Shown: positions 433 through 32,387 of the stretch, one piece after another
How the letters are laid out: every line of letters starts with the position of its first letter
How positions within the stretch are numbered: position 1 is the first letter of the stretch
Source: Desulfurococcaceae archaeon MEX13E-LK6-19
Lineage (GTDB): Archaea; Thermoproteota; Thermoprotei_A; Sulfolobales; Desulfurococcaceae
Length of the DNA stretch: 64,000 nucleotides
Reading direction: 5' to 3'
NCBI GenBank assembly: GCA_029637525.1
Contig: CP072660.1
Span: 1,761,612 to 1,825,611 of the forward strand
Notes under the pieces: model-generated
Databases searched by the model: none
Seen by the model: the letters and a program-made list of their open reading frames with translations, nothing else
Told to the model about the DNA's origin: nothing
Position numbers and translations under genes: made by a program

Positions 433-1449
433 TTAGTCTTCTCTTACCTCTTCTAATAGTTTCTTCCTGTCAGCGATCTTCCTTTGTTTTCTGAAGAGTC
501 TTGTGCTGAAGTATCTTGCAGCGTAGTCTGGTAGTATTGTTACTATCTTTGCTCCTTCGGGTAAGTTGTATTTCCTGGCAACCTTGATTGCCGCCACCAC
601 GTTTGCACCAGCCGAGATTCCTACTGGTAATCCTTCGAGGCGTGCGATTTTTCTCGCCATCTCGATTGCTTCGTCGCTTGAAACTGTTACGAAGTCGTCT
701 ATTAGGTGCTTGTTCCTAGCAATTATGTCTGGTATGAAGCCGTCGCCAACACCCTCGATCTCGTGTCTACCCCATGGACCGGGCTTTCCTGTCTTGAACC
801 ACTCTGCTGCTACTGGGCACTCAGCAGGCTCTGCACCTACGACAATAGTCTTGGGGTTAACCTCCTTTAGTCTCCTTGCTACACCAATTAGTGTACCGCC
901 TGTACCTATTTGTGCCACGAAGGCGTCTACTTTACCTAGCTGTTCAATAATCTCCTTACCTGTAGTCTCGTAGTGAGCCCACACGTTTGCCTCATCGCTC
1001 CATTGGTCGAAGAAGAAGTATTTGTCTGGATTCTCCTCGGCTAGTTTCCTGGCGTAGTCGAGTGCTTTCTTAGCGTCTGATTCGCCACCAGGTGTTGTTA
1101 TAAAGTCTGCGCCAAGTAGCTTCATTAGTAGGAATCTCTCTTCGCTCATTTCCTCTGGTATGACTATGAGTACTTTGTAGCCTAGATAAGCTCCTACGGC
1201 AGCGAATGCTATACCGGTGTTACCTGTTGTTGGTACAATCAGTGTCATTCCTGGCTTGAGTCTACCAGTGGCCTCAGCAGCCCTGATCATGTAGTATGCC
1301 ATTCTGTCTTTCAGAGAACCAGAGGGGTTCATGAACTCACATTTACCCCATATTTCGGCTTTGACGTCCTCTGGCACTACTTTCTTTAGTCTTACAATAG
1401 GGGTGTTGCCTATAAGATCAGTCATTCCATAAGCTACTCTTCCACCCAT
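433..1449 (-). CDS. PLP-dependent enzyme, cysteine synthase / CBS fold (possible beta-eliminase)
   Basis: Fold-type II PLP enzyme of 338 residues. Visible motifs: the PLP lysine in NPSGSLKDR (residue ~47), the phosphate-binding loop PTTGNTG (~73-79) and GTGGT (~182-186). The family includes cysteine synthase, O-phosphoserine sulfhydrylase and cystathionine beta-synthase, so the annotation would normally be cysteine synthase. ATG at 1449 is chosen because a GGAGGAG site lies 7 nt upstream; a GTG at 1452 is the alternative. It sits 130 bp downstream of the PreA-like gene on the same strand, at the edge of the purine-catabolism genes. It could therefore serve as a beta-eliminating lyase there, in the place that YgeX (diaminopropionate ammonia-lyase) fills in bacterial clusters; it is not a YgeX orthologue by sequence. 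That role is inference. Confidence 0.8.
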   Translation of the reverse strand: MGGRVAYGMTDLIGNTPIVRLKKVVPEDVKAEIWGKCEFMNPSGSLKDRMAYYMIRAAEATGRLKPGMTLIVPTTGNTGIAFAAVGAYLGYKVLIVIPEEMSEERFLLMKLLGADFITTPGGESDAKKALDYARKLAEENPDKYFFFDQWSDEANVWAHYETTGKEIIEQLGKVDAFVAQIGTGGTLIGVARRLKEVNPKTIVVGAEPAECPVAAEWFKTGKPGPWGRHEIEGVGDGFIPDIIARNKHLIDDFVTVSSDEAIEMARKIARLEGLPVGISAGANVVAAIKVARKYNLPEGAKIVTILPDYAARYFSTRLFRKQRKIADRKKLLEEVRED

Positions 1450-1525
1450 CACACTTCTCCTCCGAAAACCTGTGTTCTAGAAAAGAGTATTCTCTTTGCC
1501 GTAGTATATAAAGAAATTGAAAGAT

Positions 1526-1548
1526 AAAAGAAAGAGGAAGAAAAAGAG
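1526..1548 (-). terminator. Pyrimidine-tract terminator after preA-like gene
   Basis: 23 consecutive pyrimidines on the minus strand, starting 36 nt past the stop of the PreA-like gene and ending before the start of the PLP enzyme gene, suggesting the two genes are not simply one transcript. Confidence 0.55.
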
Positions 1549-1583
1549 TTGTGTCCTTAATGTAAAAACACTTTGACGCTACT

Positions 1584-2798
1584 TTATGTCTCGAAGTGTA
1601 TTGCTCTGGTTGGACACACACTTGTACATAATCCGCAGCCATAACACTTGTCAATATCTACTCTAGCAACTCTCTTACCGCCTTCTTCGACTACGTGCAC
1701 GGCATCGTAGTCACATACTTGCTGACATAATCCACAGCCAATACACTTCTTTTCATCAACAACTGGTGGTACAGCATATGTTCTAAGGGGTTTCGGTCCT
1801 AGATGCTTTAGCGCCATGCCTTTCACGTCTTCTATGCTTGAGTAGCCGTGGCTCTTCAGCCATGATTCTACTTCGTTTAGAATCCTCTTGAATACGCCGA
1901 AGCCCTCGATCAATGCTGCTGTACATATTTGTACTGCTGACGCGCCAGCCATGAAGTACTCTATCACATCAGCGCCACGTGTTATACCGCCCACACCTAT
2001 TACTGGTAACTTTGTGTTCCTAGCAACTTCTGCTACCACCGCAAGTGCTATTGGCTTAAGGGCTGGGCCACTCATCCATCCGTAGCCCCATGGACCACCT
2101 ACTATTGGCTTACCCGTCTCTATATCGATGTGCAGTGCTGGTCCGATAGTGTTCGTCGCCACTATACCGTCAACACCTACTTTCTCGAGTTCTTTCACGA
2201 GCTCTGGTATATTTGGCGTGAATGGACTTAATTTAGCGAATATAGGTATATCCACTACTTCACGTAAAGCCTTTGCAGCCTCAACAACAGGTGTCCAGTC
2301 CTTCCCTATATAGTGTGTTGAGAACTCTATTGCATCTGCACCAGCTTTCTGGCACTTGGGGCCAAGAAGTCTTAGTTCATGTGGCTTGTAACCTATGCTT
2401 ATGAAGAACGCTACATTATGTTCTTTAGCATACTTTTTGACAACAGGGTATTCTCTCTCGAGGTAGTGCTCGGCAGGTATATCACTCCATAACTCAGCGT
2501 TGAGTAGTGCATAGAATGCTCTATAGTTGCCTAGGTTAGGCTTTGGCTCTACAACAACACGTCCCTCACCAAGACTCTTCAGCATATACCCTACCATGAT
2601 ACCCCTATCAACAGTACCCATTGATGGACGTGGTACAATAGCTGGTTCGACACTAATAGTCTTGGCAACAACTCCTCCAACACCAGCATCAATCAATGCC
2701 TTCATCATTTCGGCGTCTCTAGAAATAGGGCAGGCAGCATTCATAATAGGATTCTTTAACTTAATACCAGCAATCTCAACCTCAAGATTTACAGACAT
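1584..2798 (-). CDS. preA: PreA-like dihydropyrimidine dehydrogenase / dihydroorotate dehydrogenase family protein with two [4Fe-4S] motifs
   Basis: 404 residues, close to the length of bacterial PreA. An FMN TIM barrel (about 1-330) ends with the phosphate-binding segment GVGGITRGADVIEYFMAGA; a C-terminal ferredoxin domain (about 340-400) carries CIGCGLCQQVC and CYGCGLCTSVC, two complete 4Fe-4S motifs. PreA works with PreT to reduce uracil or thymine; no PreT is in the window, so electrons may come from ferredoxin. The loop that carries the catalytic Cys in class 1 enzymes (N-x-S-C-P) reads EFSTHY here, giving Thr161 instead of Cys, so substrate or chemistry may differ. An AAGGTGGA site precedes the ATG at 2798. 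Context suggests a reductive or oxidative step on a purine- or pyrimidine-derived ring. Confidence 0.82.
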   Translation of the reverse strand: MSVNLEVEIAGIKLKNPIMNAACPISRDAEMMKALIDAGVGGVVAKTISVEPAIVPRPSMGTVDRGIMVGYMLKSLGEGRVVVEPKPNLGNYRAFYALLNAELWSDIPAEHYLEREYPVVKKYAKEHNVAFFISIGYKPHELRLLGPKCQKAGADAIEFSTHYIGKDWTPVVEAAKALREVVDIPIFAKLSPFTPNIPELVKELEKVGVDGIVATNTIGPALHIDIETGKPIVGGPWGYGWMSGPALKPIALAVVAEVARNTKLPVIGVGGITRGADVIEYFMAGASAVQICTAALIEGFGVFKRILNEVESWLKSHGYSSIEDVKGMALKHLGPKPLRTYAVPPVVDEKKCIGCGLCQQVCDYDAVHVVEEGGKRVARVDIDKCYGCGLCTSVCPTRAIHFET

Positions 2799-3138
2799 TC
2801 CTTTCCACCTTACCCATTCTCAGAGAAGGTAGTCTATACAATAAATCTCATTAGGAGAACTAAATAGTTTTACTATTACGACACTATTTTACTCAAGCTA
2901 TTGATGTTTTACTAGTATATTTACAGAACCATAAACCGTTGAATATAATGTTTAAAGAACACTATTTTTCCCATAGTGTTATTTAATAAAATTCTTATAT
3001 AACAATGCTATCCGATAGTCTTTCGAATAAATATCCCGATTCTAAATATTTGTTAATGACATTTAGTGCAAACCTTATATATTGTTAGCTTCGAAATTAA
3101 TTGTAGACCCATAGTTTCTATAAATCAGGTGAGCCATC
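2799..3138. other. Intergenic region between divergent genes, contains a hairpin
   Basis: 340 bp without a credible gene. It must hold the promoters of the PreA-like gene (minus) and the small membrane protein (plus). A perfect 8-bp inverted repeat, AACACTAT at 2958-2965 and ATAGTGTT at 2973-2980 with a 7-nt loop, is the only clear structure. No guide RNA boxes were found. Confidence 0.5.
2958..2980. repeat. Perfect 8-bp inverted repeat
   Basis: AACACTAT and ATAGTGTT with a T/C-rich 7-nt loop. Lies in the divergent spacer between the PreA-like gene and the small membrane protein; could be an operator or a weak hairpin. Confidence 0.35.
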
Positions 3139-3486
3139 GTGGGAGAGAAACCTACGGCTGCATGGGTGTTATCGTTAATAGGAGGAATACTAGGATTCCT
3201 AGGATCCCTTATATATGCAATAATTGGAACAGCTGCAGTTGCAACAATGCCAATGCCCGGATGGCTTGCAGGTGTAGGCATTGCTGTATGCTACTGGTTC
3301 GTAATAGCACACTTGATAATAATAATTGGTGCACTGAAAATAAAATCTGGTGAACCGAAAGCTGTTAAAACAGGCGGCACATTAGTTCTAATATTCTCGA
3401 TCCTAGGAGGATTCAATATCTTAGCATTAATTGGAGGAATACTAGCACTAACATGGAAACCAACAGAAGCAGCGGCAACTGTTTAA
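3139..3486 (+). CDS. Small hydrophobic membrane protein (DUF4064-like)
   Basis: 115 residues with three or four predicted membrane segments (about 8-32, 42-64, 78-105), rich in Gly, Ile and Ala. The repeated LSLIGGILGF / FSILGGF / ALIGGILAL pattern is typical of small DUF4064-type membrane proteins whose function is unknown. GTG start at 3139 is set by an AGGTGA site 6 nt upstream. It is followed by a second membrane protein gene on the same strand and is flanked by catabolic genes on the other strand; nothing ties it to them. Confidence 0.6.
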   Translation: MGEKPTAAWVLSLIGGILGFLGSLIYAIIGTAAVATMPMPGWLAGVGIAVCYWFVIAHLIIIIGALKIKSGEPKAVKTGGTLVLIFSILGGFNILALIGGILALTWKPTEAAATV

Positions 3487-4191: not shown

Positions 4192-5601
4192 TTACTTCTT
4201 GATCCATGATGGTTTCTCTATACGCAATACATCCAGCTGATACTCTCCTTTACTCAATAGTCTCTCCCATAGTTTCCAAGCAACTTTATGGACGTACTCC
4301 ATTTCTTTCTCCATATCAACTGTTAACAGCTTCCTATCTCTAACAATTACCTTACCGTTAACAATGACGGTATCTACATCACGCCCATTAAATGTGTTGA
4401 CAAGGTGTCCATAGACAGTTTCTGCTCTTACTGGTGTTGGCGTGTACTCTGGTTTTATGATGACTATATCAGCTTTCTTGCCGGGCTCGAGGCTACCCAA
4501 CTCTTTCTCTAATCCTAGTACCTTCGCTGCATCAATGGTTGCCATTTCAACTACTTTTTGTGGAGGCATAACACGTGGGTCTCTCAGTGCTACTTTATGT
4601 ATAAGATAGGTTGTCCTCATGTTCTCGAAGACATCGAATATATAGCCGTCATTACCTATGCCAACGGTTATACCCATGTCAAGCATTTTTGGTACAGGAG
4701 CTACACCCACAGCATTAAGCATATTGCTCATAGCATTATGCGCAACTTTTACATCATACTTCTTAAGTATCTTGAGCTCATCATCAATAGCTTGTACGAC
4801 ATGAGCCATGACGACGTCTGGTCCTAGGAATCCTAGTTTCTCCATTCTCTCAATGGGTCTTACACCATACCTCTCAATATTATGGTACACATCAATGAGA
4901 CCTTCTTCAACATGAATAGTTAGCAGGGCTTTATACTTATTCGCCATTTCTCTGGCCTGAATGAATAATTCGTCAGATACCGTGAATGATGCATGCAGGC
5001 TTATAGCTCCTTTAACGAGTTTGCTTGGGTCTGCATTGTTCTTCTTTATGAATCTCTCGTTTTCTTTAAGACCCTTGATTCCCTCCTTCTTTGAATGCCT
5101 CTCAGTTGCTTCAAAAGCTAGTATGCCACGTATACCAACTTTGTTAACAGCTTCTTCCTCGCGATCAAGTACTTTATCTATTGAATTCGGTCCACTATAG
5201 GTGTCAAAGAACAATGTTGTACCGGTACGGGCAAACTCCATGCTTGCTATAAGTGCGCTAGCATAGGCATCTTCATGTGTGAGCATTTCGTCGACAGGCC
5301 ACCATATCCTCTGGAGATTCTGCTGGAAATCAGTTGGAGGGTCTATTTTTGCAAACCATGTCGAGGCTCTTAGTAGTGCTCCATAAAGATGCGTGTGTAC
5401 ACAAATGAATCCCGGTACAATCACTCCACGACGTGCATCAATAACTTCTTCTGCATGATACTTGTCTCCAGGATCACCCTTACCTACTTCAACAATCCTA
5501 TCGCCGTCAATAACAACGTATCCTTCATCAAAGACTCTGCGCTCGGGATCCATTGTTACAACGATACCGTTCTTTATTATAAGAGATACTTTTTCTGACA
5601 A
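4192..5601 (-). CDS. ssnA: SsnA-like aminohydrolase (TRZ/ATZ amidohydrolase family)
   Basis: 469 residues, metal-dependent amidohydrolase with a beta-sandwich at both ends and a TIM barrel between. The metal-binding HTH is at H69/H71 (VHTHLYG); further ligands are the His in HVEEG, the His in MAHVVQA and the Asp in GNDGYIFD. Several stretches follow E. coli SsnA from memory: an xDFxxxLxxxWW block after the HTH motif, and a C-terminal GH-VxxVxVNGxVxxxDR block ending in a W-R/E-R-L/M helix. SsnA belongs to the bacterial anaerobic urate/purine gene set and is thought to hydrolyse a purine-derived ring. TTG start supported by a GGTGGA site 5 nt upstream. Next upstream on the same strand is the DUF917 gene, 84 bp away. 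Guanine deaminase or MTA/SAH deaminase activity are alternatives. Confidence 0.8.
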   Translation of the reverse strand: MSEKVSLIIKNGIVVTMDPERRVFDEGYVVIDGDRIVEVGKGDPGDKYHAEEVIDARRGVIVPGFICVHTHLYGALLRASTWFAKIDPPTDFQQNLQRIWWPVDEMLTHEDAYASALIASMEFARTGTTLFFDTYSGPNSIDKVLDREEEAVNKVGIRGILAFEATERHSKKEGIKGLKENERFIKKNNADPSKLVKGAISLHASFTVSDELFIQAREMANKYKALLTIHVEEGLIDVYHNIERYGVRPIERMEKLGFLGPDVVMAHVVQAIDDELKILKKYDVKVAHNAMSNMLNAVGVAPVPKMLDMGITVGIGNDGYIFDVFENMRTTYLIHKVALRDPRVMPPQKVVEMATIDAAKVLGLEKELGSLEPGKKADIVIIKPEYTPTPVRAETVYGHLVNTFNGRDVDTVIVNGKVIVRDRKLLTVDMEKEMEYVHKVAWKLWERLLSKGEYQLDVLRIEKPSWIKK

Positions 5602-5685: not shown

Positions 5686-6795
5686 TCAGGTCATAACTAT
5701 ATTCTTGACGAGTTTTTCAACGGGAATGTAGTTGAGATCGAAGCCAAAATGTCTTGGGCCAAAATACTCTAAACCTTTTTCTGTTCTCCAAACATCAGGC
5801 GCCCTACAAGCTAATACGTAGACTTCAAGTTTTTTACGAAGCTCATAATTAAGAACCGGTACACCATGCTTGTCAACAAATGTAATTAAGTCTGGTGGCA
5901 TAACTATAGGTTCATCATTAATCCATGCAATTATATGCTCGTTTTTCACCCATACTCTCAGTTTCTTGCCTAAGAAATCATTAGTACCCTTTACTATTAT
6001 ATCGCCTACGAGAAACCCCTCCTTACTCCTCACTACAACATCCTCTATTAAGCCATGAAATATAACCCATCCATCGATAGCTTCAACTAGCTTACTAACA
6101 ATATTTTTACCGTATTTCATTGCTTCAAGAACGAGCTTTCCAACTTCATAGCATCTAGACAGCGTGTTTTTAATTACTATACTTTTTGCTTCCTTGAATA
6201 ATATAGGTGCATCAACGACTGTTATAGAGCCGCTAGCTGTTATAGCAAGATTCCGGAGAATACTCTCATATGCATCAACACTACCATACTCCATAACAAT
6301 AACTTTCTCCCCCAAAGGCGATACCGCAACACCCGGCGTGAGTTTCTTACCATGAATAAGCAGTACGTCTTGATGGATCTCTGGAGCAGCTCTTCCAACC
6401 CTATCTCCATCAATAACCGGCTTGCCTGTCACACCAGCTGCATAGAGGGTTACAGCAGTATTCCCTGCACCAAGCTCAACAGGAATAAATGCCCCTATGC
6501 TTAAACCAAGCACTTTATTGAATAAGGAAAGAGCTTCCCTAATACACCATGATGTTTGCTGTAAATATTTAGTACTATAGGCAACGCTCCCAACATTATA
6601 TACAGAGACAACAACGTCTTCACCATCAAGTTCTTCTACATCATATATACTAAGGTCTCTATTTCTATCAAGAAATGCTTCTTTAACAAGCATTAACCCC
6701 TTCTCAATACTCCCGCCGCCGCCAGTAGCATATAGTGCTGCACCTAGGAGCAAAGATTCGAAATCCTCTCTTGTAGATAAACGTAAAACAGCCAT
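5686..6795 (-). CDS. DUF917 family protein
   Basis: About 369 residues. Family signature at the N-terminus: a REDFESLLLGAALYATGGGG stretch, followed by EDVVVSVYNVGSVAY. DUF917 proteins often lie beside hydantoinases and other amidohydrolases in heterocycle-degrading gene sets; some are called thiohydantoin desulfurase-like, but the reaction is not generally known. I choose ATG at 6795 (MAVLRLS) because a GAGGT site lies just upstream; an in-frame ATG at 6816 would add seven residues and has no clear site. It lies between carbamate kinase and the SsnA-like gene on the same strand, which points to a role in opening or hydrolysing a ring intermediate. That role is inference. Confidence 0.78.
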   Translation of the reverse strand: MAVLRLSTREDFESLLLGAALYATGGGGSIEKGLMLVKEAFLDRNRDLSIYDVEELDGEDVVVSVYNVGSVAYSTKYLQQTSWCIREALSLFNKVLGLSIGAFIPVELGAGNTAVTLYAAGVTGKPVIDGDRVGRAAPEIHQDVLLIHGKKLTPGVAVSPLGEKVIVMEYGSVDAYESILRNLAITASGSITVVDAPILFKEAKSIVIKNTLSRCYEVGKLVLEAMKYGKNIVSKLVEAIDGWVIFHGLIEDVVVRSKEGFLVGDIIVKGTNDFLGKKLRVWVKNEHIIAWINDEPIVMPPDLITFVDKHGVPVLNYELRKKLEVYVLACRAPDVWRTEKGLEYFGPRHFGFDLNYIPVEKLVKNIVMT

Positions 6796-6926
6796 GATCT
6801 TACCTCTAGTGGTCATCGAAAGCCTACTGTTCTACTATAAAATAGTGAATAGCATATACATATTCATCGTAGTTATCTGTTGAAATAAGCTGTTATCATG
6901 TCTTTACATAGAACTGGATATAAAAC

Positions 6927-6977: not shown

Positions 6978-7946
6978 CTAATCAGGTATAATGCGTGTTC
7001 CGGATTCTCCTTTTAGTGCTTCATATGCTTTGTATAGGTGTCCTATTATTGCCTGTTTACCGCCGTTCTCAACGAAACGGATTCCTGCTAGTACTTTGGG
7101 TCCCATGCTACCTGGCTTGAAGTGTCCTTCCTGGTAGTACTTCTTTGCTTCACTAACAGTCATTACATCTATTGGTTTCTGCTGTGGTGTACCGTAGTTG
7201 AGGTATACTTTCTCTACATCGGTCAGGATAAGGAGTGTTCCTGCTCCAAGAGCTGTTGCAAGCCTTTCTCCTGCAAGGTCTTTGTCTATTACGGCTTCTA
7301 CGCCCTTGAGTACACCGTCTTCTTTAACTACCGGGATGCCTCCACCACCGCTTGCTATTACTATAAAGCCTTCTTCTACAAGCCTCTTTATTGCATCAAT
7401 CTCTATTGGTCCCTTGGGGTCAGGTGATGGTACTACTCTTCTCCAGCCGCCACGTGGGTCAGGCTTCATTACCCATCCTAGTTCTTGGGCAATCTTCTTT
7501 GCTTCCTCTTCTTCATACCATGGTCCAATATATTTTGTTGGGTTCTGGAATGCCGGGTCATTCTTGTCTACAAGTACTTGCGTTACGATAGTTACAACAC
7601 CTTTGACAACCTTGCCCAAGAGTCCTTTTTCGAGTAATTTATTGTACAATGACTGCTGTATTAGGTAGCCTAGCCAGCCCTGTGTCATAGCACCAGCAAT
7701 GTCGAGAGTCATTGGTGGGAGTCCTTTCATTTTAAGTCCAGCCATCATCCACTCTGCAATGATACCTACTTGTGGTCCGTTTCCATGTGTTATAGCTATC
7801 TTATATCCTTCTTCAATAATTTTTATCAAGAACTCTGCTGAACGATATGCGTTCCTCCAATAATCCTCAGGTGTTCCTTTCTCGCCTTTTGTCTGAAATG
7901 CATTACCACCGAAAGCTACTACAAGGAATTTCTCGTCTCTAGCCAT
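6978..7946 (-). CDS. arcC: Carbamate kinase
   Basis: Transfers phosphate from carbamoyl phosphate to ADP, giving ATP, ammonia and CO2 in the catabolic direction. The 322-residue protein shows the full amino acid kinase family signature: FGGNAFQ near the N-terminus, THGNGPQVG, the GGGGIPVV loop, [23 protein letters not shown] and [11 protein letters not shown]. The length is normal for ArcC/YqeA. An ATG start with GGGAGGGT upstream is clear. With two carbamoyltransferases at 17-21 kb and the purine-degrading enzymes around it, this is the energy-conserving end of the pathway. An anabolic carbamoyl phosphate-making role, as proposed for Pyrococcus, is the alternative. Confidence 0.95.
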
Positions 7947-18328: not shown

Positions 18329-18524
18329 ACACCCAGCCTCCCACAATATAGTTCAAGAAGAAAATAGTATGTGGAGGAAATATAAAATCTTTCATCATAA
18401 AATACCCCGATAAAAACACCCAACAATAAACACCATTTAACACCATTATGTCTACAGTATTACAATAACCCAGGATTCATTATAACACCTATTAATAAAC
18501 TTGAAAAAGATAACGAAAACCTGC

Positions 18525-22452: not shown

Positions 22453-24267
22453 TTGTTTAGCCTTCTAGAGAGACCACGTAAATTGATAAAAGCCGCTTTA
22501 GGAGAAATAAAGGCCGATCTAGTGATCAAGAACACGAAACTAGTAAATGTTGTCACAGCGGAAATCCTCGAGAACATAGACATAGTAGTATACGATGGAC
22601 ACATAGTCAGGGTAGACCAAATAAAAGATCTTGACAAATACATCGGGCCAAAGACAAAAATCATAGACGGCAAGAAATACTATGCACTACCTGGGTTCAT
22701 AGAAACGCATGTACACATAGAATCCAGTATGCTTAATGTTAGAGAATTCGGTAAACTAGCTGCGATGCATGGCGTCACAACCGTTGTAGCCGATCCACAT
22801 GAAATAGGGAATGTACTAGGTGTCGATGGTATACGCTATTTTATAGAGGAGAGTAGATACACACCCGTCAGATTCTTCTTCGAGGTACCAAGCTGTGTAC
22901 CAGCAGTAGACCCCAGCTACGGCGTTGATAGTGGTGGACAACGCATTGACTCCGGACAAGTAGCAGTATTAATGCAAGACCCCGGGATCATTGGTTTAGG
23001 CGAAGTAATGGATATAGTTAGCGTATGGGATGCCCGCACAGAAATACTGGTAAAAATTGCTGCCGCCAAACTAGCCCATAAAGTAGTCGACGGACACGCC
23101 CCTCTTATCCGTGGAGAAAAACTTGATGCATACCTAGTAGCAGGTATAAGCAGCGACCATGAATCAACATTTGCCGACGAGGCTCTCGAAAAGCTTAGGA
23201 AAGGAATGTATGTCTTCATGAGAGAGGGGAGTGCATGGAAGAACCTGAAGGAGTTAGCTAAACTGGTGACAGAGTACAAGATCGATACACGTAGGCTCAC
23301 ATTAGCTGCCGATGACATAAGTGTTGAGGATCTTGTTGAGAAAGGTTACATGGACTATATAGTTAATCTGGCAATAGAATATGGAATCGATCCCATCAAG
23401 GCAATCCAAATGGTAACAATAAATGCTGCCGAACACCTAAGACTCGACGACAAGATAGGTATGATAGCCCCTGGTAGATACGCCGATATACTCTTGGTAC
23501 CGAGCATAGAGAAAATCCAGATCTCCAAGACTATTATTGGAGGCAAACTAGTTTACGACAATGGTAAATGGCTCTTTAAGGCAGATGGTGAGTACACGTA
23601 TCCAGAGAAGGCAAGGAAGACAATAAACTTGAAGAAAATACCTGAACCACATGAGCTACTGATAAAAGCGCCTATTGAGAAAGGCTTAGCAAAAATAAAC
23701 TTAATCAAAGCAATCCCGGGCAGTGCATTAACCAAATGGGAGAAAACAGAAGTACCAATAGAAGACGGTTACCTCAAGGCACTCCCCGAAGAAGACATCG
23801 CTTATATCGCTGTTCTCGATAGACATCATGCATCAGGAAACATAGGCAGAGGTTTTGTCAAAGGACTTGGACTAAGAGAAGGCGCTATAGCACAGACAAT
23901 AGCACATGACACACACAACCTCATAGTAGCTGGCACTAATCCACGTGACATGGTTGTCGCGATAAAGAAAGTTGTCGAGACAGGAGGTGGAATCGTTGTT
24001 GCTGTTAAAGGCAAGGTCAAAGCTGTTGTTAGACTACCAATAGCAGGACTTGTAAGTGATGCTGACTACAAGACTGTTTACAAGGAGCTCAAGGACGTAG
24101 AGAAGAACTTGAAGAAACTTGGAGTAGACTTCAATAATATACACATGACACTAGGACTACTAGCCTTACCCGTGATACCAGAGCTACGTGTAACAGATAA
24201 AGGTCTCGTCGATGTATTCAACGCGAAAATAGTCGACCCCATAATAGAAGTTGTTGAAAAGAAGTAA
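22453..24267 (+). CDS. ade: Adenine deaminase
   Basis: 604 residues, normal for Ade. Converts adenine to hypoxanthine plus ammonia. Metal-site motif ETHVHIESSMLNVREF, then ADPHEIGNVLG, DGHAP (active site) and LAADDISVEDL; the C-terminal part has the family block RHHASGNIGRGFVKGLGL followed by IAHDTHNLIVAGTN and PIAGLVSD. TTG start at 22453 has GGTGAT 6 nt upstream. It opens a plus-strand pair with the allantoinase-like gene and is divergent from the other amidohydrolase. Together with xanthine dehydrogenase and AMP phosphorylase in this window it would feed adenine bases into catabolism. Confidence 0.95.
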   Translation: MFSLLERPRKLIKAALGEIKADLVIKNTKLVNVVTAEILENIDIVVYDGHIVRVDQIKDLDKYIGPKTKIIDGKKYYALPGFIETHVHIESSMLNVREFGKLAAMHGVTTVVADPHEIGNVLGVDGIRYFIEESRYTPVRFFFEVPSCVPAVDPSYGVDSGGQRIDSGQVAVLMQDPGIIGLGEVMDIVSVWDARTEILVKIAAAKLAHKVVDGHAPLIRGEKLDAYLVAGISSDHESTFADEALEKLRKGMYVFMREGSAWKNLKELAKLVTEYKIDTRRLTLAADDISVEDLVEKGYMDYIVNLAIEYGIDPIKAIQMVTINAAEHLRLDDKIGMIAPGRYADILLVPSIEKIQISKTIIGGKLVYDNGKWLFKADGEYTYPEKARKTINLKKIPEPHELLIKAPIEKGLAKINLIKAIPGSALTKWEKTEVPIEDGYLKALPEEDIAYIAVLDRHHASGNIGRGFVKGLGLREGAIAQTIAHDTHNLIVAGTNPRDMVVAIKKVVETGGGIVVAVKGKVKAVVRLPIAGLVSDADYKTVYKELKDVEKNLKKLGVDFNNIHMTLGLLALPVIPELRVTDKGLVDVFNAKIVDPIIEVVEKK

Positions 24268-24431: not shown

Positions 24432-25787
24432 TTGGTATTGTCTTCATTACTTATAAAAAACGCTAGAGTATTTATTAATGGAGAACCCGTTGAAGCCTCT
24501 ATCTACGTGGAAAACGGTGTCGTCAAATCTATTACAAAAAACCATGAGCCATTACTGAGTAGAGCTGAAACCATTATTGATGCCGAAAATAAGCCTGTTA
24601 TACCAGGAGGTATAGACATTCATGCACACATATACGATCCCGATTATACTCATCATGAAGACTGGCGTACAGGTAGTTTAGCAGCTGGCTATGGAGGTAT
24701 AACAACTGTTTTTGATATGCCTCTTAGAATGTTTGTTGACAACATAGAGAAACTATACCTCAAGGTTAAGAAGGGTCTGGAGGACTCGTATGTCAACTTC
24801 GGCATCCATGCTGGTATGATGAAAGACGAGAACTTGACTGCTATACCAGAGCTTGCAGAACACGGTGTCATAGGATTTAAGGTGTTTACACTCAAGCCCT
24901 GGGGTGCTAGTGACCACGCTATACTTAAGATAATGGATCTTGTACGTAGTGTCGATGGCGTCGTAATGGTTCATGCCGAAGATGATGCTCTCATTGATAG
25001 AGGTCTTGAGGAGATGAAGAACAGGACGGATCCACTGGCTCACCACGAGGCACGTAGCGATGTTGCTGAAGCAGCTGCCATATCAAAGATAGGGTTCTAC
25101 GCTATGGTCACTAGGGCTCATACACATATTGTCCATGTTACATCGAAACTTGGTGCCGAGAGAATAGCGTATTTCAAGAAGAAGGGTGTGAAACTAACCG
25201 CCGAGACCTGCCCCCAATACTTATTCTTCACTAGAAAAGATGTGGAGAAATGGGGTAACTACCTAAAGTGTGCTCCATCGATAAAGACTGGTGCCGATGT
25301 AGAGGGGTTATGGGATGCTATAGCCTCTGGTGTAATAGATGCTATAGCGAGTGACCATGCCCCGGCTCCTAGGAATGAGAAAGAAGTAGATGTATGGAGT
25401 GCATGGGGAGGTCTTCCAGTAATAGAGCTGATAATACCATTCACTTACACTTTTGGTGTGAAGAAGGGAAGAATAAGCTTCAGCAGGTTCGTTGAGGTAG
25501 TCTCTACAAATCCTGCCAAGATAATGAAGCTTTATCCCAGGAAAGGAGCCATACTACCCGGTAGTGATGCTGATCTTGTTGTATTAGATGTAGATTATTG
25601 CGAAAAAGTAGATCCAGCTAAGCTGCACCATAAAGTAGACTGGTGTCCCTGGGAAGGCGTCGAGCTATGTGGATGGCCGCGCCACGTTATAGTCAATGGA
25701 GAACTGCTTATACAAGACCGTGAACTCGTAGGAAAACCTGGTATGGGAAGATACGTCGGCGAGTACTTTAAGAAAACAAAAGAGTAG
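24432..25787 (+). CDS. Allantoinase / hydantoinase-type cyclic amidohydrolase
   Basis: 451 residues. Cyclic amidohydrolase with H64/H66 in IDIHAHIYDPD, the carbamylated lysine K150 in GVIGFKVF, His in MVHAEDD and in HIVHVTS, and the metal Asp in IASDHAP. MPLR after the GGITTVFD segment, ETCPQYLFF and VWSAWGGLPVIEL resemble allantoinase (AllB) and HyuA more than dihydroorotase. It would open a cyclic ureide such as a hydantoin. TTG start with GGGAGG upstream. Bacterial urate clusters carry HyuA in this position. Dihydropyrimidinase or dihydroorotase are alternatives. It converges with mocA, 7 bp away. Confidence 0.83.
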   Translation: MVLSSLLIKNARVFINGEPVEASIYVENGVVKSITKNHEPLLSRAETIIDAENKPVIPGGIDIHAHIYDPDYTHHEDWRTGSLAAGYGGITTVFDMPLRMFVDNIEKLYLKVKKGLEDSYVNFGIHAGMMKDENLTAIPELAEHGVIGFKVFTLKPWGASDHAILKIMDLVRSVDGVVMVHAEDDALIDRGLEEMKNRTDPLAHHEARSDVAEAAAISKIGFYAMVTRAHTHIVHVTSKLGAERIAYFKKKGVKLTAETCPQYLFFTRKDVEKWGNYLKCAPSIKTGADVEGLWDAIASGVIDAIASDHAPAPRNEKEVDVWSAWGGLPVIELIIPFTYTFGVKKGRISFSRFVEVVSTNPAKIMKLYPRKGAILPGSDADLVVLDVDYCEKVDPAKLHHKVDWCPWEGVELCGWPRHVIVNGELLIQDRELVGKPGMGRYVGEYFKKTKE

Positions 25788-25794
25788 TACTCTT

Positions 25795-26451
25795 TCACCT
25801 AATCCATTTTATGCCGAACAAGTTTTCTGCTTCAGCCAGATCTTTTGGTTCATCAATATCGTATACTACACCAAAATCATCTGTATCAATGTATATTTTA
25901 TAGGTGGTAAATCTACGTAGAAAGCCTTTCAAACCACGTTCTTCCTCGGTTATCTCCAGTATATGTTTAGCTAGGTTCCTCGAAACCATAAGAGGATGTC
26001 CTCCTTTCCCATTGTATCTTGGCAGTAAGATAAAGTCTTTTCCACTACGATATAATTCAATCGCCTTGTTCAATAGTTCTCCTATAGTGCTTTCTTTGAT
26101 AAACGGGACATCGCCTGGATGGATTATAACTATGTCACTATACTTCAAGACACTTGCAACACCTGTTTTCACCGAGAAAGACATGCCTTTATAGTAATCT
26201 GGATTATACACATACTTAACACCAGTATCACCAACAGCTCTAATTATATTAGTAAAATCATGGCCGACAACAACCACTACTTCATCAACATCATCATATC
26301 TAAGATACTTATCAATAAGGTATCTCAACAAAGATTTCTCTACGCCGTTATCTCTTATTTTCTGAACAAGCTTTCCTCCAGGAAATCTCGTCGACTCTCC
26401 AGCAGCAAGAACTATACATGAAATAAACTGGCCGCCCATAATTCTAGCCAA
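25795..26451 (-). CDS. mocA: MocA/MobA-like nucleotidyltransferase (molybdenum cofactor cytidylyltransferase)
   Basis: 218 residues. NTP-transferase signature LAAGESTRFPGGK at the N-terminus, then YNPDYYKGMSFSVKTG, HPGDVPFI (metal Asp) and NGKGGHPLMV. The GMSxSV and GHP motifs are those of MocA, which adds CMP to molybdopterin for xanthine dehydrogenase-family enzymes. That fits its position between the amidohydrolase and the XDH genes. TTG at 26451 is the outermost start; ATG at 26439 is equally possible. The FPGGK loop and missing GMP-specific features argue against MobA. Confidence 0.83.
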   Translation of the reverse strand: MARIMGGQFISCIVLAAGESTRFPGGKLVQKIRDNGVEKSLLRYLIDKYLRYDDVDEVVVVVGHDFTNIIRAVGDTGVKYVYNPDYYKGMSFSVKTGVASVLKYSDIVIIHPGDVPFIKESTIGELLNKAIELYRSGKDFILLPRYNGKGGHPLMVSRNLAKHILEITEEERGLKGFLRRFTTYKIYIDTDDFGVVYDIDEPKDLAEAENLFGIKWIR

Positions 26452-26545: not shown

Positions 26546-26932
26546 CTATTGTCTAATGTTGGAGTCTCCGCTAAATATCTTCTCAATCTTCTCTTTAGCT
26601 AACCGTACTGCATTTGCTTTATCTCTCCACTTTCTTAGTTCGCTAAGGTGAGGGAATGATATGGCGTCTCTGGGGCAAAGTTTAGCGCATGTATCACATC
26701 CCACCATACAGTTGTATGGTCTAGCTACTATTGGTTTATTTTCTTTAGGATCCCAGTCATAGACTACTCTACCTGAGCACGTTAGAAAACATAATCCACA
26801 ACCAATACATCTCTCATAGTCTATCCGTGGATACCATGGTATTTCCTTCCGTGGAATGTTCCACCATTTTGTGTTAGAAAAGTCTTTTATTGTTCTGCTC
26901 AGCACATCCTTCCCTATTACTGGAACCTCCAT
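26546..26932 (-). CDS. Ferredoxin-type protein with two 4Fe-4S motifs
   Basis: 128 residues. First cluster motif CIGCGLCFLTCSG (final Cys followed by Ser rather than Pro), second CMVGCDTCAKLCP with a slightly altered spacing, then AISFPH. A ~45-residue N-terminal extension rich in Trp and Pro and a charged C-terminal helix flank the ferredoxin core, so it is longer than a simple ferredoxin. Probably an electron carrier for the XDH-type or PreA-like enzyme; this is inferred from position. GGGAGGT lies 4-5 nt before the ATG. Divergent from the ArsR regulator gene. Confidence 0.8.
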   Translation of the reverse strand: MEVPVIGKDVLSRTIKDFSNTKWWNIPRKEIPWYPRIDYERCIGCGLCFLTCSGRVVYDWDPKENKPIVARPYNCMVGCDTCAKLCPRDAISFPHLSELRKWRDKANAVRLAKEKIEKIFSGDSNIRQ

Positions 26933-27032
26933 GAACTACCTCCCTTGTAAGGTTTTTCATATGATTTATATTTCATTTGAAAGAATAAAAATATTACCTT
27001 TTCAACGATAAGGTATATACAAGGTGTACTTT

Positions 27033-27422
27033 ATGCCAAAAATCCGAGAGATCTTGGAAAAACTTGTTGCCGACAACAAATGCCAAGATCTTACTGAACA
27101 ATATAAAGAAGAACTTGATGAAGAAGTGTTTCTTCCTAGTGACGCTAAGATTAATGAGTACGCTAACATATTTAGCGTGTTATCTAACCCCAATAGACTT
27201 AAGATCATTTATTTACTTCTCCAGAAACCTATGCCTGTCTGCTTCCTAGCATCACTCCTTGGCCTAGACCAGACTCTCGTCTCCCATCACTTGAGTATCT
27301 TAAGGAAGCATGGCATTGTAGAACAGATCATTAAGGGAAAGTATAGGTTTTACTATGTGTCTAAACAAAAACTCTTTGACATCCTGGCTAGTATATTTAA
27401 GGAATTCGAGCTTAGAAAATAA
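27033..27422 (+). CDS. ArsR-family transcriptional regulator
   Basis: 129 residues. A charged N-terminal helix (about 1-45) precedes a winged helix: FSVLSNPNRLKIIYLLL, LGLDQTLVSHHLSILRKHGIV (recognition helix) and the wing GKYRFYYVS. Two cysteines exist (one near the N-terminus, one in PMPVCFLASLL), so metal, thiol or other effector sensing is possible. It is directly upstream of xdhC and the XDH subunits and divergent from the ferredoxin gene, so it is the best candidate for a local regulator of purine catabolism. ATG at 27033 is chosen over GTG at 27024 because AAGGTG lies 6 nt upstream. Confidence 0.85.
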   Translation: MPKIREILEKLVADNKCQDLTEQYKEELDEEVFLPSDAKINEYANIFSVLSNPNRLKIIYLLLQKPMPVCFLASLLGLDQTLVSHHLSILRKHGIVEQIIKGKYRFYYVSKQKLFDILASIFKEFELRK

Positions 27423-27454
27423 CCTAGAAGACAATGGGTTTGAGGAGCAAGGTT

Positions 27455-28336
27455 ATGTATCCCAAATTTGTGTCTGACAAGGACTTGTTCGAAAAAGCTG
27501 TTGAAGCCCTGGAGCAAGGTTTGAGAGTATGTATTGCTGTTATTGTCGAGAAGATAGGTAGTGGCCCGCGTGGCCCTGGAGCGAAAATAGTTGTTCTCGA
27601 AGACGGGAGATACTATGGTACTCTTGGTGGTGGCCCCTTTGAGAGAATGGTTGTATCTCATGCACTTCAAGCCATTAAGGAAGGAAAGTCTCGCCTAGAA
27701 AAATACTCTTTCACTGGCACAGAAGAACCCGAGAAAAAAGGTGTTCACGAGACTGGGTTATTGTGTGGTGGTACTGTGACCGTCTTCTTTGACGTGCTTA
27801 AACCCAAGCCAACAGCGTTCATAGTTGGTGTAGGTAAGATAGGGAAACCTTTAGCCGATATAATGAATCTTATTGGAGCAAAAATAGTTGCACTAGATCC
27901 GAACAGAGAGTTATTAAAGAAAGAGGTCTTCCCCTATGCTGAACTCTACCATGGAACACCTGAGGAAATAGGTGAGTACATAAAAGAAAATGCAAGACCT
28001 ATAGACATGGTCTTTATAGTTCATGGCGAGACAAATGTAGATGTACCTGTACTAAAGAAAGCAGTTGAGTCGAAAGCTGGATTCATAGGAGTGCTTGGTA
28101 GCAAAAGGAAGGTCATAGAGTATGCTAAAATGATTATAAGAGAAGGTGTGAAACCCGAAGACCTAAGGAAGAAAGTGAGGGCACCAATAGGAATAGACAT
28201 TGGAGCAAAAACACCTGAAGAAATAGCTGTCAGCATAGCAGCACAAGCCATAGCATGGCTGAACAATAGCGAAAAAGAAGAATATAAAACGCTAAACATA
28301 CTAATGAGAGAAGACTTGTTCAAAGATAAACCATAA
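27455..28336 (+). CDS. xdhC: XdhC-type molybdoenzyme maturation factor
   Basis: About 293 residues. N-terminal XdhC domain with VEKIGSGPRGPGAK and YYGTLGGGPFE; C-terminal Rossmann domain with AFIVGVGKIGKPLADIM and GVLGSKRKVIEYA. XdhC binds molybdenum cofactor, promotes its sulfuration and inserts it into xanthine dehydrogenase. The E. coli counterpart in the yqe/yge cluster is YqeB. A GAGGAG site 7 nt before ATG 27455 supports this start; an ATG at 27434 is in frame without a site. It lies 32 bp after the arsR stop and about 220 bp before the XDH FAD subunit. Confidence 0.9.
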   Translation: MYPKFVSDKDLFEKAVEALEQGLRVCIAVIVEKIGSGPRGPGAKIVVLEDGRYYGTLGGGPFERMVVSHALQAIKEGKSRLEKYSFTGTEEPEKKGVHETGLLCGGTVTVFFDVLKPKPTAFIVGVGKIGKPLADIMNLIGAKIVALDPNRELLKKEVFPYAELYHGTPEEIGEYIKENARPIDMVFIVHGETNVDVPVLKKAVESKAGFIGVLGSKRKVIEYAKMIIREGVKPEDLRKKVRAPIGIDIGAKTPEEIAVSIAAQAIAWLNNSEKEEYKTLNILMREDLFKDKP

Positions 28337-28568: not shown

Positions 28569-29432
28569 GTGTATATACCATCAAGCCTTGATGATGCATT
28601 AAAATTCCTTGCAGAAAAAGGAAATGAAGCAACAATACTGGCAGGAGGTACTGATGTACTAGTTCTTGCGAGAACAGGTGTTATCAAGCCAAAGCTAATG
28701 CTAGACCTATGGTCCATTAAGAAAGAACTAACATACGTTAAGAGAGAAGACGGGTACATCAAAATAGGGGCTATGACAACTATTGAAGAACTATACAATA
28801 GCTTTCTAGGCAAGGAGAAAAAATATCTTGGCTTCGTTGATCTGTACAAGCATTTTGCCACACCATACCTCAGAAACCTAGCTACTATAGGAGGAAATAT
28901 TGGTACAGCACATCCACTTTCTGATGCCGCCATACTATTACTAGCGCTTGACGCAGAAGTAAAGCTATCAAGTATCAACGGCGAACGATGGGTTAAGATA
29001 CCTGACCTCTACCTCGATATAAGGAAGCTCAACAGGAAACCCGAGGAAATGATCACCGAGATAAGGTTTAAGGAGCTTCCCGACAATTCTTCAACAGCAT
29101 TACTAAAGCTCGACCGTAGACATGGTCATGCAATGGGCTACATTGTTGCAGCAGCATACATGGCTCTCGACGGCGATAAAATAGCCGATGTAAGGCTTAG
29201 CTTTGACAGCACTGGCAAACCATATCCTGGTAGAGCCTACAAGACAGAAGAATTCCTTAAAGGCAAGAACCTTAGTGAGGACACGATCCTAGAAGCATTC
29301 AAAGTACTTGAAAACGAAATGCAGAGAATAAGCGATTACCGTGCACCAGCAGAGTACAGACTACATCTATCAAAAGTATTGATGAAAAGAGCGCTCTTCT
29401 TAATAAAAGATCGTGTGATAGGGGGTGCTTAG
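28569..29432 (+). CDS. Xanthine dehydrogenase family FAD-binding subunit
   Basis: About 287-291 residues. FAD_binding_5 domain with ILAGGTDVLV (pyrophosphate loop) and NLATIGGNIGTAHPLSDAA, then a CO dehydrogenase flavoprotein C-terminal domain. Passes electrons from the iron-sulfur subunit. GTG at 28569 is the first standard start, but the ribosome site AGGTGATGA (28542-28550) is 18 nt away and the family-like N-terminus continues upstream as RFNVYIPSSL; an ATA at 28557 would be properly spaced (see findings). First of three tightly spaced XDH genes: 3 bp to the 2Fe-2S subunit. Confidence 0.9.
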   Translation: MYIPSSLDDALKFLAEKGNEATILAGGTDVLVLARTGVIKPKLMLDLWSIKKELTYVKREDGYIKIGAMTTIEELYNSFLGKEKKYLGFVDLYKHFATPYLRNLATIGGNIGTAHPLSDAAILLLALDAEVKLSSINGERWVKIPDLYLDIRKLNRKPEEMITEIRFKELPDNSSTALLKLDRRHGHAMGYIVAAAYMALDGDKIADVRLSFDSTGKPYPGRAYKTEEFLKGKNLSEDTILEAFKVLENEMQRISDYRAPAEYRLHLSKVLMKRALFLIKDRVIGGA

Positions 29433-29435: not shown

Positions 29436-29996
29436 ATGTCTGGTCCTGAGTCTAAATCACAACAAGAATACCCTGACATCACTATAACCCTTAACGTCAA
29501 TGGCAAAGACTACACCATCACAGTAAAACCATATGAAAGACTAATAGATGTACTAAGATACAAACTAGGGTTAACAAGCGTCAAAGAAGGATGTGGACGT
29601 GGCGAATGCGGTTCCTGTGTAATCATTATGGACGGCAAGCTTGTGCCATCATGCCTTATACCAGCCTACAGAGCTAATGGAAGCAAAATACTAACCCTCG
29701 AAGGATTAGCGCCTGAAGGCAAACTACATGCAATACAGAAAGCCCTTATAGACACTCTTGGAATGCAATGTGGATTCTGCTTCCCAGGAGTGATTCTCGC
29801 AACAAAATATCTTCTTGACAGGATACCAGACCCCACAGACGAGGACATCAAGGACATACTTGAGGGACAACTATGTCGTTGTGGAAGCTACCTAAGATTC
29901 ATCAAAGCAGTAAAACTTGCTGTCAAGTACATTAAAGAAGGAAAGATCTATTTTGACGTAAAAGAAGCTGAACCAGGTAAGATCTTGGAGGGGTGA
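29436..29996 (+). CDS. Xanthine dehydrogenase family [2Fe-2S] subunit
   Basis: 186 residues. Plant-type 2Fe-2S domain with GCGRGECGSCVIIMDGK and VPSC (about residues 51-76), then the alpha-helical 2Fe-2S domain with QCGFCFPG and LCRCGSY (about 110-150). An N-terminal 10-residue and C-terminal ~20-residue extension are slightly longer than usual. It carries electrons from the Mo site to FAD. Situated between the FAD and Mo subunits, with 6 bp to the latter, in one operon. Confidence 0.93.
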   Translation: MSGPESKSQQEYPDITITLNVNGKDYTITVKPYERLIDVLRYKLGLTSVKEGCGRGECGSCVIIMDGKLVPSCLIPAYRANGSKILTLEGLAPEGKLHAIQKALIDTLGMQCGFCFPGVILATKYLLDRIPDPTDEDIKDILEGQLCRCGSYLRFIKAVKLAVKYIKEGKIYFDVKEAEPGKILEG

Positions 29997-30002
29997 TAGA
30001 TT

Positions 30003-32387
30003 ATGGCCAAGGCTCCTGAGTATGTACGTATTGTAGAAGAAATATTTGAGAAATTCAAAGGCAAGCCACTATATTATGTAGGCAAACACTCAATTAGATG
30101 GGATGCCATCACAAAGATCACTGGCAAAGCAATGTTTACAGCTGACTTCATCAAACTTTACAAGAACCTCGTATGGGTTTATAGTGTCAGAACAAAGTAC
30201 GCCCATGCATGGATAAAAAGCATTGACGTTAGTGAAGCAGCCAAGTATCCAGGAGTACTCAGAGTAATCACTGCAAAGGACATACCTGGAGTAAACGATG
30301 TAGGCTACGTTATACCGGATCAGCCACTTATTGCTGAAAAGAAAGTAAGGTACATCGGCGACACAGTAGCACTAATCGTAGCCGAAGACCCATACATAGC
30401 TAGAGAAGCTGGCGAACTAGTACGTGTGGAATACGAGCCACTACCGGTTTACACCGATGTAGAACAAATAATCGACATCATGACACTAAAGGAGAAACCC
30501 CATGAGAGAATTCATGAGGAGAGAGACAGCGATATAGTGGCACACTTCAAGATCAGGGCTGGCGATGTAGACAAGGCATTCAAGAAAGCAGACGTCATCG
30601 TTGAAAACAAGTACAAGACACCAATGCAAGAACACGCCTACCTAGAGCCCGAGGCAGCACTAGCCATACCAGAGCCTGATGGAGGCATAACTATAATCGC
30701 GTCAACACAGTGTCCATTCGATGTAAGAAGAGCTGTAGCCAAAGTACTCAACATGCCTCAAAACAAGGTTAGAGTCATAGTACCTGCTGTAGGCGGTGGT
30801 TTCGGCGGTAAAGAAGACGTGGTCAACGAGATTGGTGCAAAAGCCGCTCTCGCAGCATACCTCACAGGTAGACCAGCAATAGTAGTACATACACGTGAAG
30901 AAAGCATGATAGGCCATAGCAAGAGACACCCAGCAGTAATGTGGTACAAGCATGCCGCCAAGAAGGATGGTACATTACTAGCTGTAGAAGCCCACATAGT
31001 CTTTGACACCGGAGGCTACGCTAGCCTAGGACCATTCGTTGCCTGGAGAGCAACAGTACACGCAACAGGACCATATAAAGTGAAGAATGCGAGGATCGAT
31101 ACACTAGCCGTCTACACCAACACAGTATATAGTGGTGCATTCCGTGGATTCGGAAACCCACAAATACACTTCGCTGTTGAGAGACAGATGGACATACTAG
31201 CTGAAGAACTAAAGATGGACCCTGTTGAGCTAAGGCTAAAGAACCTCTTGAGAGCGGGCGATAAAACAGTACATGGCCAGCTATTAACATCAGAACATGG
31301 CGTTGGGCTAGAAGAGGCGTTAAAGAAGGCTGTTGAAGCTGCTGATTGGTACAACAAGAGGAAACTCTACAGCAACCAGACAGGAACCATAAGGAAAGGT
31401 ATTGGCGTAGCACTAATGTGGCATGGCAACTCGATTGGTGTTGAGGGAGCAGACTATTCAAGCGCCACATTAATCATCAACAGAGACGGATCAATAACGT
31501 TCAGAACAGGGCTCATGGACATGGGACAGGGCTCACTATGGGGACTAGTACTTATTGCCGCAGAAATCCTTGGTGTACCACCATCCTACTTCAAGATCGA
31601 GCAGCCGGATACAGCTAGCACACCCGATGCCGGTCCAACAGTAGCATCAAGAGCTACAGTAATGGGCGGTAATGCTACACTCGTGGCAGCATACAAGCTC
31701 AGGAAGAGACTCAATGAAGTAGCAGCCAGAATGCTTGGCTGTAAACCAGATGACATAGTAATCAGAGCACCCGAAGTATACTGCCGTAACGATCCAAACA
31801 AGAAGACCACATGGCAAGCCGTTGTAGAACAGAGCTTCTGGGACGGAGTACCACTGCAAGAATTCGGATACTACCGTGCACCACCTGCTAGATGGGAAGA
31901 AGAGACAGGACAGGGAGAACCATACATAACTTACACGTTCGGTGCAATAATATCTGAAGTAACCGTAGACATGGAGACTGGCGCAATTAAAGTAGACAGG
32001 ATCATTACAGCATACGATATAGGCAAAGTAATCAACCCCGTGGGAGCAGAACTACATGCCGAAGGCGGTGCCATACAGGGCATGGGCTATGCTATAATGG
32101 AGGAAATAATACATGACAAGGACGGTGTCGTAAGGAACCCGAACCTATCAACATACTACATACCAACAATAAAGGATGCACCAGAAATCATACCAATATT
32201 CGTAGAGTCAGGATACAAACGCGGACCATTTGGTGCGAAAGGACTTGGAGAACCATCAATAAACGGTATAGCACCATCAATAGCAAACGCTATATCACAC
32301 GCACTAGGAATCCACTTCTTCGAGCTACCAATAACGCCACACAAGATATACCTAGAACTCAAGAAGCGTGGATTAATAAAATTCTAA
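30003..32387 (+). CDS. Xanthine dehydrogenase family molybdopterin-binding subunit
   Basis: 794 residues, full length. N-terminal Ald_Xan_dh a/b hammerhead domain (about 35-150), then the Mo-binding domain: VGGGFGGKED (about 262-271), GAFRGFGNPQ (about 378-387), MGQGSLWG, and the catalytic glutamate in KGLGEPS (about residue 749). Hydroxylates a purine or similar aromatic carbon. Substrate specificity cannot be set by motif reading; hypoxanthine/xanthine is the likeliest given adenine deaminase, XdhC and MocA nearby, though aldehyde oxidase-like or nicotinate-type members share these motifs. Last gene of the operon, followed by a long pyrimidine tract. Confidence 0.92.
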   Translation: MAKAPEYVRIVEEIFEKFKGKPLYYVGKHSIRWDAITKITGKAMFTADFIKLYKNLVWVYSVRTKYAHAWIKSIDVSEAAKYPGVLRVITAKDIPGVNDVGYVIPDQPLIAEKKVRYIGDTVALIVAEDPYIAREAGELVRVEYEPLPVYTDVEQIIDIMTLKEKPHERIHEERDSDIVAHFKIRAGDVDKAFKKADVIVENKYKTPMQEHAYLEPEAALAIPEPDGGITIIASTQCPFDVRRAVAKVLNMPQNKVRVIVPAVGGGFGGKEDVVNEIGAKAALAAYLTGRPAIVVHTREESMIGHSKRHPAVMWYKHAAKKDGTLLAVEAHIVFDTGGYASLGPFVAWRATVHATGPYKVKNARIDTLAVYTNTVYSGAFRGFGNPQIHFAVERQMDILAEELKMDPVELRLKNLLRAGDKTVHGQLLTSEHGVGLEEALKKAVEAADWYNKRKLYSNQTGTIRKGIGVALMWHGNSIGVEGADYSSATLIINRDGSITFRTGLMDMGQGSLWGLVLIAAEILGVPPSYFKIEQPDTASTPDAGPTVASRATVMGGNATLVAAYKLRKRLNEVAARMLGCKPDDIVIRAPEVYCRNDPNKKTTWQAVVEQSFWDGVPLQEFGYYRAPPARWEEETGQGEPYITYTFGAIISEVTVDMETGAIKVDRIITAYDIGKVINPVGAELHAEGGAIQGMGYAIMEEIIHDKDGVVRNPNLSTYYIPTIKDAPEIIPIFVESGYKRGPFGAKGLGEPSINGIAPSIANAISHALGIHFFELPITPHKIYLELKKRGLIKF

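Follow-up and report, generated by a model that had tools for sequence, protein, structure and literature searches.

The reductive degradation of uric acid in Escherichia coli is encoded by a cluster comprising xdhD-ygfM, ygfK, ssnA, hyuA, ygeW, yqeA, ygeY, and ygeX (PMC12507026), and a UacX/UacY variant of it is known from Clostridioides difficile (PMC12507026). Descriptions of the pathway name bacterial phyla only (PMC12507026, PMC12990295), and a commentary regards the route as restricted to anaerobic bacteria (PMC12990295). Here we describe a 64-kb stretch of DNA (the window; G000:C1:1761612-1825611) from the complete 1.91-Mb genome of Desulfurococcaceae archaeon MEX13E-LK6-19, carrying genes for what is probably an archaeal form of the reductive anaerobic urate/purine pathway. 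Each step of the pathway of Li et al. 2025 (PMC12507026) has a homologue in or beside the window, which makes the gene set a candidate archaeal counterpart. A first-pass annotation had taken the genes for an archaeal equivalent of the bacterial anaerobic urate/purine set, a proposal that the family placements given below support. No archaeal version of the reductive urate pathway was found in literature searches, which excluded most subscription journals and preprints.

Proteins were identified by NCBIfam family searches and by BLAST against the E. coli K-12 cluster. All enzymes named in the first-pass annotation were recovered where it had placed them, and the set turned out to be larger by a CysK-like enzyme, a PALP enzyme, and a YgeY homologue beyond the left edge of the window. 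As it had also said, unrelated genes interrupt the set; a Trk potassium system, a dGTPase-like gene, and membrane proteins lie between the pathway genes. The features are listed below (XDH, xanthine dehydrogenase; PLP, pyridoxal 5'-phosphate; TC1, TC2, and Deam2 are our labels; scores in bits).

1-288, minus strand: 5' portion of the gene for a threonine-synthase-like PLP (PALP) enzyme, which may fill the role of YgeX; the gene runs on leftward (genome C1:1760637-1761899)
433-1452, minus strand: CysK-like PLP fold-type II enzyme, candidate terminal lyase or beta-replacement enzyme (cysKM 330, below cut-off 344)
1584-2798, minus strand: UacX/PreA-like reductase of dihydropyrimidine dehydrogenase type (PreA 215, below cut-off 335)
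4192-5601, minus strand: SsnA of the archaeal branch, putative ring-opening aminohydrolase (388, below cut-off 444; SsnA clade in the tree)
5686-6816, minus strand: DUF917/S-methyl-thiohydantoin-desulfurase-like protein, putatively accessory (PF06032 and PF20906)
6978-7946, minus strand: carbamate kinase, carbamoyl phosphate + ADP to ATP (TIGR00746, ArcC, 395, above cut-off 358)
17243-18346, minus strand: TC1, knotted-type carbamoyltransferase (tree, motifs, AlphaFold model)
19723-20775, minus strand: TC2, second knotted-type carbamoyltransferase (tree, motifs, AlphaFold model)
20882-22285, minus strand: Deam2, second amidohydrolase-type deaminase, putatively of purine/adenosine type (5'-deoxyadenosine deaminase 411, below cut-off 522)
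22453-24267, plus strand: adenine deaminase (TIGR01178 538, above cut-off 472)
24432-25787, plus strand: HyuA/allantoinase/dihydropyrimidinase-like cyclic amidase (allantoinase 300, cut-off 358; D-hydantoinase 290, cut-off 393)
25795-26451, minus strand: MocA-like molybdenum cofactor cytidylyltransferase (family search; adjoins the XDH genes in sister family f7)
26546-26932, minus strand: ferredoxin-type protein (4Fe-4S family matches, none above cut-off)
27024-27422, plus strand: ArsR-family regulator (NF033788 76, above cut-off)
27434-28336, plus strand: XdhC-type molybdoenzyme maturation factor (NF045664 171, below cut-off 350; 34% identical to E. coli YqeB)
28569-29432, plus strand: XDH FAD subunit (family search)
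29436-29996, plus strand: XDH 2Fe-2S subunit (family search)
30003-32387, plus strand: XDH molybdopterin subunit with E271/R349/E750 (family search, alignment, tree)

The reactions, their order, and the substrate are proposed here from homology. Purine bases would enter through adenine deaminase, perhaps also through Deam2, and XDH would interconvert purines and reduce urate to yanthine. The ferredoxin-type UacX would then dearomatise the ring, and SsnA followed by HyuA would open the rings to give 2,3-diureidopropionate. The ureido groups would be released as carbamoyl phosphate by phosphorolysis through TC1 and/or TC2, with YgeY perhaps hydrolysing one of them in the genomes that have it, a PLP lyase would yield pyruvate and ammonia, and carbamate kinase would make ATP from the carbamoyl phosphate. 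The gain of ATP through carbamoyl phosphate had been suggested in the first-pass annotation, and candidate enzymes for it are present, namely the carbamoyltransferases and a carbamate kinase scoring above its cut-off. An AMP phosphorylase encoded at 40683-42254 on the minus strand (625 bits, above cut-off 535) could supply adenine to a purine route.

Compared with the E. coli cluster (PMC12507026), the archaeal set likewise comprises an XDH-family enzyme, SsnA, a putative HyuA-type amidase, carbamoyltransferases of the knotted type, YgeY, carbamate kinase, an enzyme of PLP fold-type II, and the MocA and XdhC/YqeB helpers. It differs in having UacX where E. coli has YgfK, an XDH whose subunits are separate and whose active-site pair is different, two carbamoyltransferases of which neither falls in the YgeW clade, and CysK- and ThrC-like PLP enzymes in place of YgeX; its genes are also dispersed in the window genome, with no urate permease identified. 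The C. difficile variant (PMC12507026) shares the UacX-type reductase with ferredoxin-like electron input and no FAD domain, but there the hydrolase UacY replaces YgeW and carbamate kinase, whereas the archaeon retains the carbamoyltransferase and carbamate kinase route.

The two carbamoyltransferases do not group with the biosynthetic ornithine (OTC) and aspartate (ATC) carbamoyltransferases. In a tree supported by the Shimodaira-Hasegawa-like approximate likelihood ratio test (SH-aLRT) only, and with some long branches, TC1 and TC2 form two separate clades placed with YgeW, N-acetylornithine carbamoyltransferase (AOTC), and Chloroflexi enzymes. Each clade spans Thermoproteota, Bathyarchaeota, Nitrososphaerota-type archaea, and an unplaced archaeal metagenome-assembled genome (Hermod_104). 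TC1 and TC2 appear to be old archaeal paralogues. The PLxVPQ loop is common to TC1 and YgeW and is not found in TC2, whose substrate loop differs; the VWVSM loop of OTC occurs in neither, TC1 reading VYPKAWSP and TC2 reading VFPRNWAS at this position. The AlphaFold models of both proteins have the knotted N-acetylornithine carbamoyltransferase as their best match by TM-score, the TC2 model (predicted local distance difference test score, pLDDT, 94) with 3kzm at the top. A dedicated OTC (428 bits) and ATC (331 bits) are encoded elsewhere in the genome.

The XDH molybdopterin subunit carries E271, R349, and E750, which align with E232, R310, and E730 of Rhodobacter capsulatus XDH, the residues with which that enzyme binds and turns over its purine. 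The Glu/Arg pair is common to the window XDH and the SsnA-cluster XDHs of Schnuerera, Mageeibacillus, and a Tissierellia bacterium; at the same positions E. coli XdhA has Gln and Ala and XdhD has Gln and Asn. The tree, moderately supported and arbitrarily rooted, sets the window XDH and the Bacillota SsnA-cluster XDHs on one side and E. coli XdhA, XdhD, and PaoC on the other. Both the pair and the separation from PaoC argue against an aldehyde or CO oxidiser, CO dehydrogenases having been compared by profile score only. A second locus of the genome (G000:C1 around 1139500-1151000; L059, L060) holds two XDH-type operons, whose XDH copies are also found in genomes without the module of the window, together with an aspartate carbamoyltransferase and an allantoinase/dihydroorotase-like gene scoring 379 bits (above the allantoinase cut-off of 358). 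The carbamoyltransferase there, at 1139532, was considered as a catabolic enzyme and rejected once identified as the aspartate type.

A tree of 69 proteins places the window SsnA in an archaeal branch (41 rows; Thermoproteota, Bathyarchaeota, Hadarchaeota, Nitrososphaeria, and Asgards), which is sister with 100% support to the bacterial branch (17 rows, including E. coli SsnA), both lying apart from guanine deaminase and Deam2-like enzymes. On this placement the window SsnA is orthologous to bacterial SsnA. UacX combines PF01180 with two [4Fe-4S] ferredoxin motifs, has no FAD/NADPH domain, and is present in 29 of 30 genomes having SsnA. The HyuA-like enzyme is 30% identical to E. coli HyuA and occurs in all 33 near-complete genomes having TC1. 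DUF917, encoded between SsnA and carbamate kinase, was not seen in the compact operons of relatives. Since UacX scores best as PreA, HyuA matches allantoinase, dihydroorotase, and dihydropyrimidinase models best, and DUF917 is of the thiohydantoin-desulfurase type, the same genes could be taken for a reductive pyrimidine/hydantoin route, in which UacX would play the part of PreA on uracil and HyuA that of dihydropyrimidinase, a carbamoyltransferase would take the place of beta-ureidopropionase, and carbamate kinase would make ATP. We consider this improbable, because it leaves unexplained the constant SsnA and purine-type XDH, the linked adenine deaminase, and the YgeY homologue beside the genes in both the window genome and a relative (G080).

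This YgeY homologue is an M20 hydrolase encoded at genome C1:1759298-1760440, 1.1 kb outside the window edge; it scores 360 bits with NF009555, above the curated cut-off of 321, and is 34% identical to E. coli YgeY. The PALP gene lies across the same edge, its joined reading frame giving 423 amino acids, 70% identical to the PALP gene in the operon of sister family f7. A separate PALP copy at genome position 85062 is 42% identical to the window PALP and is the likelier of the two to be the true threonine synthase. The CysK-like enzyme belongs to the fold family that includes YgeX. We suggest from these similarities that the CysK- and threonine-synthase-like PLP enzymes stand in for YgeX, which would be the sole change of protein family among the pathway steps.

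The association of these genes was followed through genomes of the same class by scoring eight core genes (TC1, TC2, SsnA, HyuA, XdhL, CysK, PALP, and UacX), with presence thresholds on identity or bit score set by hand. In 36 of 44 near-complete genomes the core genes are all-or-none, 26 having all eight and 10 having none; pairwise Fisher tests give p-values of about 1e-6 to 1e-10, which ignore shared ancestry. Both states are found within single genera: in g2 (G070 and G071 versus G072), in g14 (G098, G099, and G103 versus G102, G104, and G105), and in g54 (G165, G167, and G169 versus G166, which has kept the CysK gene alone). The sister family f7, including Zestosphaera tikiterensis (L091), has a compact operon TC2-TC1-carbamate kinase-SsnA-UacX-PALP, and in the relative G080 (L079) SsnA-UacX-CysK-PALP-M20 stand head to tail. 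In G004, G090, and G096 the XDH genes have the CysK-like gene as a neighbour, and Deam2-Ade-HyuA are kept together in G170 and G004; from these separate linkages of the core operon, CysK-XDH, and Deam2-Ade-HyuA, the window genome appears to hold three modules in one 35-kb region. A Bmp-type (PnrA-like) ABC transporter adjoins module genes in G004.

The near all-or-none co-occurrence and the compact operons of relatives indicate that the grouping is not due to chance. It is very improbable that the window merely brings together neighbours with ordinary functions, that is, an arginine carbamoyltransferase, a pyrimidine dihydroorotate dehydrogenase (DHODH), a cysteine synthase, a threonine synthase, and a general aldehyde oxidoreductase. 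Such a view could appeal to the unrelated genes interrupting the set, to the resemblance of CysK and PALP to biosynthetic enzymes, and to the lack of any other PF01180 DHODH in the genome. It conflicts, however, with the within-genus differences, the compact operon in another family, the separate OTC, ATC, and likely threonine synthase of the same genome, and the tree placements of the carbamoyltransferases, XDH, and SsnA. The view of the first-pass annotation that this was an independently assembled version is not borne out either, SsnA being orthologous to its bacterial namesake by tree placement and the sister family having the genes in a compact operon. Its claim of a different enzyme subset is likewise unsupported, YgeY being encoded just past the window edge; the actual differences are the carbamoyltransferase pair and the CysK- and ThrC-like PLP enzymes that replace YgeX.

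Within the proposed purine pathway, a more specific variant may be considered, in which TC1 and TC2 remove by phosphorolysis the two ureido groups of diureidopropionate, so that each ring yields two carbamoyl phosphates and two ATP, with CysK/ThrC-like lyases in the place of YgeX. We put this forward tentatively, and would not be surprised if it proved wrong. In 12 relatives with the full set of eight core genes, of which six are single-contig genomes, nothing resembling YgeY scored above about 93 bits, and in these relatives both ureido groups may therefore go through the two carbamoyltransferases. The same argument had been considered for the window genome, as YgeY seemed lacking and two carbamoyltransferases obligatory; it was dropped there when YgeY was found just past the window edge, and is kept for the 12 relatives.

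Several observations weigh against assigning the window genes to a urate/purine pathway. TC1 and TC2 fall outside the YgeW clade, yet in the same knotted group, and YgeW models give them only 137 and 143 bits against cut-offs of 453-500. SsnA, UacX, and HyuA all score below curated cut-offs, no YgeX-family match was obtained, CysK-like and ThrC-like PLP enzymes being found instead, and no purine transporter or urate permease was identified in the 64-kb window. The genome encodes PyrB and has a PyrF-like gene, yet UacX is its only PF01180 (DHODH-type) enzyme above cut-off; UacX might for this reason also serve pyrimidine synthesis. Neither the window XDH nor the Bacillota XDHs have an equivalent of E606, a residue of E. 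coli XdhD that has been proposed to act in yanthine formation. Moreover, at the Hadarchaea loci L100, L103, and L104 the archaeal SsnA-UacX pair is accompanied by another SsnA-like gene, close to YgfK-like genes; that of L100, the only one of these extra copies placed in the tree, belongs to the bacterial SsnA clade. Because some Hadarchaea hold both types, the archaeal SsnA may act on a different purine.

These last points bear on the possibility that the logic of ring degradation is the same with another entry compound, such as xanthine, hypoxanthine, or some further purine, which UacX would reduce directly and the archaeal SsnA would then open. The separate archaeal SsnA clade, its coexistence with the bacterial type in Hadarchaea, and the absence of E606 would all fit. 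On the other hand, the Bacillota SsnA-cluster XDHs that group with the window XDH are likewise without E606, and C. sporogenes XdhAC is reported to reduce urate to yanthine (PMC12990295), the C. sporogenes sequence being outside the present comparison. We regard another entry compound as unlikely, if the most serious of the alternatives, and retain urate reduction by XDH as the probable entry.

A scan of species genomes with SsnA found archaeal loci in Desulfurococcales, Hadarchaea, Bathyarchaeota, Thorarchaeota, a Heimdallarchaeon, Caldarchaea, and other Nitrososphaeria, followed by loci of Chloroflexi and Bacillota. The flanks of several carry TC1, TC2, CysK, PALP, carbamate kinase, XDH, or UacX; at most Thorarchaeal loci no other core gene lies within the DNA examined around SsnA. 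At least two archaeal loci (L128 and L135) have an F420-type luciferase-family protein directly upstream of SsnA, and such a substitution has been reported for Chloroflexota. Tungsten-type aldehyde ferredoxin oxidoreductase family genes lie near UacX and SsnA at L094:13994-15907 and L114:3961-5898, with no XDH gene seen in the flanks of these two loci. The Chloroflexota SsnA loci L140 and L143 also unite two carbamoyltransferase-family genes, YqeA, a ThrC-like PLP enzyme, a CysK-like enzyme, and SsnA, but one of their carbamoyltransferases is ATCase-like and their SsnA is of the bacterial clade. A 125-residue gene beside the Chloroflexi carbamoyltransferase was considered as PyrI and rejected, being an IVP-family protein. 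Harvest of carbamoyl phosphate from a purine ureide by a carbamoyltransferase and carbamate kinase has been proposed for the ureidoglycine carbamoyltransferase of Rubrobacter xylanophilus (PMC4016543); unlike the archaeal enzymes, that one is of a pseudo-ATCase family and serves an aerobic uricase/allantoate route.

Taken by homology and gene linkage, the known bacterial pathway would have an archaeal variant. With the set present in Thermoproteota, and parts of it linked in Bathyarchaeota, Nitrososphaeria, Hadarchaeota, and Asgard archaea, purine-ring degradation would become a plausible source of nitrogen, carbon, and ATP for archaea of hot springs and sediments. The set also offers a testable case in which two carbamoyltransferases would share a single catabolic route. 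A paper on Staphylothermus marinus, a member of the order Desulfurococcales, reports that this archaeon cannot make purines and that it carries a Bmp nucleoside transporter, and contains none of the words carbamoyl, carbamate kinase, and xanthine. If the two-ATP variant is true, genomes with all eight core genes but without YgeY would depend fully on the two-carbamoyltransferase route. The SsnA and carbamoyltransferase clades extending across several archaeal phyla would then mean that the route is old in archaea.

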